DNA from: a virus
IMG/VR virus record: IMGVR_UViG_3300000227_000019
Span: 156-24,198 of that record
DNA: 24,043 bases
Reading direction: 5' to 3' (one strand)
Under the pieces are notes generated by a model. That model was not told where the DNA came from. It ran no database searches and saw only the letters and a list, made by a program, of their open reading frames with translations. Within the stretch, counting starts at the first letter, position 1. Every line of letters begins with the position of its first letter. The translations under genes and the position numbers were made by a program. Shown one piece after another: positions 8,394 to 23,066 of the stretch.

Positions 8394-8414
8394 TTCCTAT
8401 TCTCCTTATATAGT

Positions 8415-8466
8415 AAAAGGGGCTACTATAGAATCGGATGACCCGCTCTGATAAGTAGCCCCTTTT
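8415..8466 (-). terminator. Intercistronic hairpin, probable attenuator/partial terminator between tail tube and chaperone
   Basis: A perfect 13-bp inverted repeat (AAAAGGGGCTACT at 8415-8427 with its complement at 8454-8466) encloses a 26-nt loop in the 120-nt gap. On the minus-strand transcript the stem ends in four U and is followed by ACUAUAU, a weak U-tract. On the plus strand it ends in five T. It could reduce expression of chaperone and tape measure relative to the abundant tube protein, or block read-through from the other strand. Confidence 0.6.
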
Positions 8467-8484
8467 TCTTACGTCCTTTATGGC

Positions 8485-21566: not shown

Positions 21567-22301
21567 CTACTCCATTCGTATTGGGACTATCGTTGGATTA
21601 CTATGCCCGTTCTTTTTCAAAAGTTCATTTGTCCCAATGGTTATTTCTCCATCACAGAAAACACCATCATCTATTTCTCGATTACATACCAAATGAATTT
21701 TATTCTTCTTTTCATTTGGGTACAAAGTCCAAATAGTACCTAGAAGTGTATTACATTTTGGACAGTATATATATTGCATCTTAGACTCATAAAACTTCCT
21801 AGCTCTAGCCTTCAAAGATTCCAGGAAGTCAATAAAAGATGTTTCCTCATCTGATTTTCTATGTTTTCTCGTGATCTTTAGGTCTGCCTGTAACTTAGAA
21901 ATATCCTCTCTAAGATCAGAGGCAACCTTGTTTACTTTCTCGAATACATAAATATTATCTGCATTAACAGATTCATCTTCGGTCCTCAATCTGTAAAGAA
22001 GCTGTTCATAGTCTTCAAGGGCGAGAAATGCTTGAACAAGAGCCCTAAGAGCCGCTCTGTCATTTATTTTTAAATCAGAAAGATCGTACTCCTTCTCGAA
22101 CTCCTCCAATTTGGAAGTAATTCTTTTCTCAAAATTGGCAGATTGTTCTACACTGTTGTACTTCTTCTCAAAGTATTCATCAAATTCCTCATCTGACATA
22201 TTCCGATACTGCTTCAGGTTCCTTGTCTTTCTCTTATCCGGTATCGTGTGCCTTATTCCATGCTGATACCATACTCCTTTAGATGGCAATTCTCCAGTCA
22301 T
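21567..22301 (-). CDS. Zinc-ribbon protein upstream of terminase block, unknown (possible DNA-binding packaging factor)
   Basis: This 244-aa protein is mainly charged helix over residues 20-170 (for example EEFDEYFEKKYNSVEQ, and RAALRALVQAFLALEDYEQLLYRL), followed by a C-terminal zinc ribbon: IYCPKCNTLLGT near 178-189 and HLVCNREIDDGVFCDG near 203-218. The four cysteines should bind one zinc ion. The ATG overlaps the previous gene's stop as ATGA. No small terminase is recognisable in the window, and this helical protein with a zinc ribbon is the nearest candidate to fill that role, but I see no helix-turn-helix typical of small terminases. I treat it as unknown. Confidence 0.6.
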   Translation of the reverse strand: MTGELPSKGVWYQHGIRHTIPDKRKTRNLKQYRNMSDEEFDEYFEKKYNSVEQSANFEKRITSKLEEFEKEYDLSDLKINDRAALRALVQAFLALEDYEQLLYRLRTEDESVNADNIYVFEKVNKVASDLREDISKLQADLKITRKHRKSDEETSFIDFLESLKARARKFYESKMQYIYCPKCNTLLGTIWTLYPNEKKNKIHLVCNREIDDGVFCDGEITIGTNELLKKNGHSNPTIVPIRME

Positions 22302-22513
22302 TTTTTCCTATTTTTTCCTTTTTCTTCTTCATTTTTCATATAATTATAAACTTTTTCTACATTCTGTGCTAAATATGAATTTATATCTGTTTTTGATAAA
22401 TCCATACAGGCCTTATGAAAAAAAAGATTCAGATAAGGTACATCTAGTCCAACCATCTGTACCTTATCTGAATCTTCTATAGGCTTATTGCAATGAAAAC
22501 ATATTTTTCCCAT
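22298..22513 (-). CDS. Small zinc-finger protein (C-x2-C ... H-x2-C)
   Basis: This 71-aa protein starts at the ATG at 22513 and has CFHC at residues 5-8 and FHKAC near 32-36, giving a C-x2-C...H-x2-C zinc site, as in small phage and LIM-like fingers. The tail is Lys/Glu-rich. The middle of the gene encodes a perfect 19-bp hairpin (22424-22476) with a following T-tract, and the Leu-Phe-Phe codons between the fingers are that T-tract. It overlaps the phosphatase gene by 29 nt and the next gene by 4 nt. The conserved finger residues on both sides of the hairpin suggest that the ORF is genuine. Function is unknown; nucleic-acid binding is plausible. Confidence 0.65.
   Translation of the reverse strand: MGKICFHCNKPIEDSDKVQMVGLDVPYLNLFFHKACMDLSKTDINSYLAQNVEKVYNYMKNEEEKGKNRKK
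22418..22476 (-). terminator. Intrinsic-terminator-like hairpin embedded in the zinc-finger coding sequence
   Basis: A perfect 19-bp inverted repeat (AAGATTCAGATAAGGTACA and its complement, 22458-22476 with 22424-22442) encloses a 15-nt loop. On the sense transcript the 3' arm runs straight into a U-run of eight (two bases within the stem plus 22423-22418), then CAUAAGG. This is the form of a Rho-independent terminator although the stem is only moderately GC-rich. It lies wholly inside the 71-aa gene. Translating ribosomes would disrupt it, so termination could depend on translation or on a phage antiterminator. Confidence 0.75.
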
Positions 22514-23066
22514 TTAGTATTTCCGCAATAATTTTATCAAATGCCTCTATGCAAGAATTGGTAAATTCAATACCTAGGCCAGATAATCTTTCCTCATCCT
22601 TAATATTATATGGTTGACGTATTCCGTATACTTTGCAATTATTTAATAAAGACTGCATTTTTTCCGCCTGATCTTCCACAAAGAAATCTATCTCCATTTG
22701 TTTACATATAGAACTTTTATCTTTAGAAAAGATAAGATTCTGTCTTTGAGGAAAATCATATCGCTTCAAGAAATTCTCTGTAGAAAAAGACACACTCAAA
22801 GGACGGCCAGTTACATAGTAAATAGATGTGCCCAGCGATTCCAAAATCCTCAATTTTTTGACAATATCTGGAGAGATTATGATTCTATTATACAAGAACG
22901 GAAGTGTCGCTATATACTCCATGTAATCTTCACTGACATATAATTTATAATTACTCCAGAAATCATTATTGGATACATCGCTTATTTTCCCAATTTCGCA
23001 AAGATACCTATATACAGCCAGGTGCCACGGATAGAGTACTCCATCAAGATCTGTGCCTACATTCAT
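22485..23066 (-). CDS. HAD-superfamily phosphatase (5'-nucleotidase-like)
   Basis: This 193-aa protein carries the HAD motifs in order: motif I GTDLDGVLYPWH with nucleophile Asp6 and Asp8, motif II YYVTGRP with Thr86, a motif III lysine near FSKDKS (Lys115 or Lys117), and motif IV IDFFVEDQAEKM with Asp127, Glu131 and Asp132. Residues 20-75 form the helical cap. Such phage enzymes are usually 5'(3')-deoxyribonucleotidases or nucleotide phosphatases that adjust nucleotide pools; a polynucleotide phosphatase cannot be ruled out. The ATG at 23066 has AAGGA upstream and overlaps the zinc-ribbon gene by 23 nt. The 3' end overlaps the 71-aa gene by 29 nt. Substrate is inferred only. Confidence 0.75.
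   Translation of the reverse strand: MNVGTDLDGVLYPWHLAVYRYLCEIGKISDVSNNDFWSNYKLYVSEDYMEYIATLPFLYNRIIISPDIVKKLRILESLGTSIYYVTGRPLSVSFSTENFLKRYDFPQRQNLIFSKDKSSICKQMEIDFFVEDQAEKMQSLLNNCKVYGIRQPYNIKDEERLSGLGIEFTNSCIEAFDKIIAEILNGKNMFSLQ

Follow-up and report, generated by a model that had tools for sequence, protein, structure and literature searches.

The locus described here raises the question of why a small protein-coding gene of a phage should carry, in the middle of its codons, a long and perfect hairpin that runs out into a series of uridines. The gene encodes a 71-aa protein on the minus strand (22298-22513) of what we call the window, a 24,043-nucleotide stretch of viral DNA taken from a virus record of 33,196 bases (positions 156-24198); the contigs compared are metagenomic fragments.

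A hairpin inside a small zinc-finger-type gene

An inverted-repeat search and RNA folding delimited two arms of 19 nt each (22424-22442 and 22458-22476, minus-strand gene), which are 100% complementary, are separated by a loop of 15 nt (22443-22457) and form the longest perfect inverted repeat of the window among those with arms ≤60 nt apart. In the RNA, the 5′ arm (AAGATTCAGATAAGGTACA, 22476-22458) comes first, and the 3′ arm (TGTACCTTATCTGAATCTT) leads into a U8 tract (22425-22418) that is made of Leu-Phe-Phe codons and is the best U-tract of the gene. Two of the eight U's lie inside the 19-bp stem, and an equivalent description is a 17-bp stem followed by U8. As the preliminary description had stated, the whole structure falls within the coding sequence, where it occupies codons 13-31, between the two halves of the finger, a CxxC (residues 5-8) and an HxxC (residues 33-36). 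Folded on the coding strand the hairpin has an energy of −36.6 kcal/mol, a z-score of −9.4 against a dinucleotide null in which 0 shuffles were equally good. Under a synonymous-codon null the longest stem averaged ∼6.5 bp and never reached 19 (0/1000 and 0/300), with MFE z-scores for the window of about −7 to −8 (−7.8 in the homologue comparison below). Hence the amino acid sequence does not force the hairpin, and the earlier judgement that it goes beyond chance is borne out.

A stem that is stable beyond expectation under both of these nulls and a U-rich tract directly 3′ of it on the transcribed strand are features of an intrinsic terminator, and the tail score (4.85 in sense vs. 0.93 in antisense) makes the hairpin terminator-like in the sense direction only. 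A short loop and a G+C-rich stem, which are typical of terminators and not strictly defining, are lacking here, with 15 nt in the loop and 6 G-C pairs out of 19 in the stem. A consensus terminator scan with a loop limit of 8 did not list the hairpin, and the Rfam 15 covariance models gave no match at the gathering score in the window. Elsewhere in the window, at an intergenic site of the structural region, there is a near-perfect 16-bp inverted repeat with T-runs (8412-8469, AGTAAAAGGGGCTACT/AGTAGCCCCTTTTTCT), an ordinary terminator candidate that is possibly bidirectional.

The gene that hosts the hairpin is real, as 16 homologues of its product retain C5, C8, P26, N29, and H33. Its product is a probable treble-clef-like zinc finger, and the AlphaFold2 model has a mean pLDDT of 81.5. 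No known family was convincing, with matches to Pfam, PHROGs, and solved structures all weak and none above cut-off in Pfam or PHROGs. Fold searches with the model gave nothing below an E-value of 0.001, the resemblance to small zinc proteins of the ribosome and to PHD/LIM fingers being weak. Annotated phages contained no homologue at useful E-values, and a pattern scan of bacterial and archaeal genomes found none.

All of the main genes of the window are on the minus strand, and gene annotation confirmed the setting previously described for the hairpin gene, with primase- and phosphatase-type genes upstream and the terminase, portal, and major head protein genes downstream. The order begins with tRNA and methyltransferase-like genes in the rest of the record and proceeds through a Toprim primase-like gene and a zinc-ribbon gene to a HAD/NT5C-like phosphatase gene (22485-23066, minus strand), which overlaps the start of the 71-aa gene. 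The stop codon of the latter is in turn overlapped (ATGA) by the start of a 244-aa gene (21567-22301, minus strand) with C-terminal CxxC motifs and a structure model of poor quality. This is the first gene of the downstream group, which continues with glycosyl-/methyltransferase-like genes and then the large terminase, the portal, and the head protein. Beyond the window, the same record (L005:11115-16163, minus strand) holds 18 tRNA genes of many specificities interspersed with several methyltransferase-like genes; for a fragment of 33 kb, this number of tRNA genes is large. One undetermined base (N) at L005:8199, in the primase-like gene, points to an assembly joint or to low coverage. The sole relative of the terminase in the genome collection (50% identical, L124:3238-4782) is on a contig that was assigned to a Bathyarchaeota MAG by binning; whether this is a viral contig or a question of binning bears on the host.

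Stems in homologous genes

Scans of viral contigs by protein and by terminase alignment, together with whole-record searches and a local profile search, yielded 17 distinct gene homologues. Strong stems are present in six genes, that of the window and those of L018 (ACTCCCTATG/CATAGGGAGT), L019 (AAGATTCACA/TGTGAATCTT), L020 (AGGACTTG/CAAGTCCT), L022 (TCCCAATGGAAA/TTTCCATTGGGA), and L031 (GTCTCGATG/CATCGAGAC), and they differ in sequence, in register, and in exact position. In the window and L019, which have a register in common in its outer part only, the 3′ arm stands directly before the Leu-Phe-Phe codons. In L018, L020, and L031, where a Trp breaks the Leu-Phe-Phe run, and in L022, it stands before Cys-Phe codons; these four genes pair nearly the same codons, each in a register of its own. 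In none of the six cases did the flanking sequence examined contain a stronger hairpin; outside the window the perfect stems measure 8-12 bp only, and the stem-bearing homologues have long loops of 14-33 nt, some of which contain inner helices. The stem adjoins the best U-tract of its gene in 5 of the 6 strong cases. L022 has a mediocre tail score, none of the six has more than a weak tail in the antisense direction, and compared with synonymous recoding the U-tract alone shows no significant gain.

The preliminary description had proposed that a stem absent from relatives that keep the protein would refute its reading. Such an absence is found in L113, the closest relative with a complete gene, and in L021, L115, L116, L119, L120, and L122, but it is contradicted by at least five other relatives. 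It had also proposed aligning homologues for compensating synonymous changes, and this comparison gave support of another kind, as relatives carry different stems in place of one stem maintained by compensating changes. The idea that stem-less homologues have a terminator in the intergenic gap instead found no general support.

Against a codon-randomized null, with the pooled codon usage of the fetched contigs, local MFE z-scores were −7.8 for the window, −3.5 for L018, −4.2 for L019, −3.6 for L020, −2.3 for L022, and −3.8 for L031, and the six zinc-finger chunks all rank in the top 17 of the 234 coding chunks of their contigs (mean z of −0.20 and sd of 1.2 for the 228 others). Given that these six contigs had been chosen for their stem, a terminator score that combines the hairpin within the 56 nt immediately preceding a U-tract with the tail score was calculated for all 17 genes, again with a codon-randomized null. 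The score reached z ≤ −2.5 in 8/17 homologues (the window, L018, L019, L020, L022, L031, L117, and L121) vs. 8/240 control coding chunks, a count that is not independent, as the homologues are related, and that uses a self-built combined score picked after the six stems were known. Across all values, homologues and controls differed with a Mann-Whitney p of 0.002, and elsewhere in these contigs stems that resemble terminators are rare. That the stems differ in sequence and register speaks for their having arisen repeatedly. Retention of structure and not of sequence is what would be expected of an intrinsic terminator, unlike a sequence-recognized site or chance; the hairpin next to the U-tract is probably under selection and a real signal at the border between replication and particle genes.

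A promoter-like element and the competing readings

Approximately 45 nt past the U-tract, still in the 3′ part of the 71-aa gene, there is a promoter-like element recognized from sequence only, TTAGCA-18-TATAAT (22343-22372, minus strand; 10/12 matches), which has the −35 and −10 hexamers with 16-18 nt spacing of a σ70-type promoter. A start ∼7 nt after the −10 would leave a leader of roughly 35 nt before the 244-aa gene. Most homologues have a similar element at the 3′ end of the gene, and where the homologous gene is shorter, a comparable −10, or one of the extended form (TGnTATAAT), comes just past the stop codon (e.g. L022, L114, L118, and L119). Scored with self-built simple weights on an AT-rich consensus, the −10 elements at or just after the gene 3′ end in the 17 homologues gave a Fisher combined p of about 6e-8 against a same-record background, with single sites unremarkable in several homologues (L115 and L117). 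The −10 of the element coincides with the two codons for Tyr-Asn in a C-terminal motif that recurs: at 22343-22351 of the window and in homologues, Tyr-Asn (often Tyr-Asn-Tyr) near the C terminus is encoded as TATAAT(TAT), and this protein motif may partly reflect the overlapping −10 element. Upstream of the zinc-finger gene of L048, a 14-bp inverted repeat of two mirrored GTGGTATAAT elements (L048:2906-2969) looks like overlapping divergent promoters.

The reading that we favor, with a probability of roughly 0.6, is that the hairpin is an intragenic intrinsic (Rho-independent) terminator and that a promoter follows it, at the boundary with the terminase and structural genes. Polymerase arriving from the upstream replication- and nucleotide-type genes would transcribe the stem and then the U-tract, where part or all of it would stop, and the downstream group (the 244-aa gene, sugar and methyl transferases, terminase, portal, and capsid) would be started from its own promoter ∼45 nt on. 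Both signals would be written into codons because these phages pack genes without gaps. The stem would be remade in other registers through codon choice and placed beside the U-rich codons that the protein makes available, Leu-Phe-Phe or, if Trp breaks this first run, Cys-Phe-x-Leu. The cost would be that full-length mRNA for the 71-aa protein needs read-through, which could come from translation close behind the polymerase, a possible entry point for a regulatory switch; translation of the gene could also mask the stem, and this counts against a terminator. We infer termination, its efficiency, and the activity of the promoter.

A switch was the proposal of the preliminary description, in which the hairpin is a translation-sensing attenuator or antitermination device and the stem is kept from forming by a phage factor or by ribosomes that translate the 71-aa gene, so that late-gene transcription is timed. 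Overlap of the gene with its neighbors by start and stop codons makes coupled translation likely, the hairpin sits at the early/late border, and hairpins of intrinsic terminators are known not to form where transcription and translation are tightly coupled (PMC5021804). We nevertheless consider this unlikely: no alternative antiterminator structure was noticed in the folds made and no factor was identified, several relatives of similar gene order have no stem, and the promoter-like element just downstream offers a simpler route to late-gene expression, so that a boundary formed by just a terminator and a promoter is the more economical interpretation. The broader idea that the zinc-finger-type gene is a conserved, recodable switch cassette between the replication and structural genes of this phage group, with codons that would carry a late promoter and a terminator relievable by translation or by the protein itself and a hairpin re-invented in new registers, is speculative and improbable.

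The remaining alternatives carry less weight. An RNA processing or stability element, either a duplex cut by RNase III or a 3′-protective hairpin that sets the ratio of upstream to downstream mRNA, would suit the perfect 19-bp stem and a structure without sequence conservation, but appears improbable given that the perfect stems of the other homologues are short for RNase III and that such an element would not be expected to lie so regularly just 5′ of the best U-tract. Long perfect arms are typical of template-switch mutation, and a palindrome perfected in this way (quasipalindrome correction), or by chance, could be without function, as the stem-less relatives might suggest; however, different stems recur in the same gene stretch in several phages, elsewhere not at such a rate, and the stem tracks the U-tract, so that we find a non-functional origin very hard to credit. 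Slippage of RNA polymerase on U8, favored by the hairpin and giving a frameshifted product, draws on the features that stem-loop-stimulated slippage has in common with intrinsic terminators and on the position of U8 directly after the stem in the window, but the runs in relatives are interrupted (TTTTCTTTC, GTTTTGATTT, and TTGCTTTAC) and unsuitable, which leaves this reading with even less credit. We attach the least probability of all to a DNA-level element near the terminase gene, for example a signal for replication or for the start of packaging: its position upstream of that gene in the contig would be appropriate, but the arm sequences are not conserved among homologues and the U-tract is oriented on the sense strand only.

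Relation to known systems

Termination within a phage gene is already known from gene 4 of the Bacillus phage phi29, inside which there is a Rho-independent terminator (PMC11476376), and a terminator directly followed by a promoter (t97 and p98) from the kayvirus vB_SauM-515A1 (PMC7698491); the new evidence here is comparative. With phi29, the window would have in common an intrinsic terminator that a compact phage genome carries inside one of its protein-coding genes. The phi29 terminator is thought to tune the output of genes in one transcription unit (PMC11476376) and lies in the early region, where it presumably favors production of p5 and p6, whereas the predicted signal of the window precedes the terminase and structural genes, lies within a zinc-finger-type gene unrelated to gene 4, and is followed by a promoter-like element. 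The kayvirus pair similarly marks a phage transcription-unit border by a terminator and then a promoter, whereas in the window both elements are within one small coding gene and are known from sequence alone. For E. coli, ORF-internal RNA 3′ ends and premature termination are reported (PMC7815308); termination signals within coding sequences that set expression would be common to both, the E. coli cases coming from mapped 3′ ends and that of the window from structure and evolution in uncultivated phages.

These data suggest that selection can keep a regulatory RNA structure in a protein gene even as the sequence and the register of that structure change, as a comparison of relatives makes visible. 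If termination is confirmed, a transcription-unit border, a stop and then a start, would be encoded in the codons of one small gene, and this suggests scanning small genes at the module borders of tightly packed phage genomes for hidden terminator/promoter pairs.
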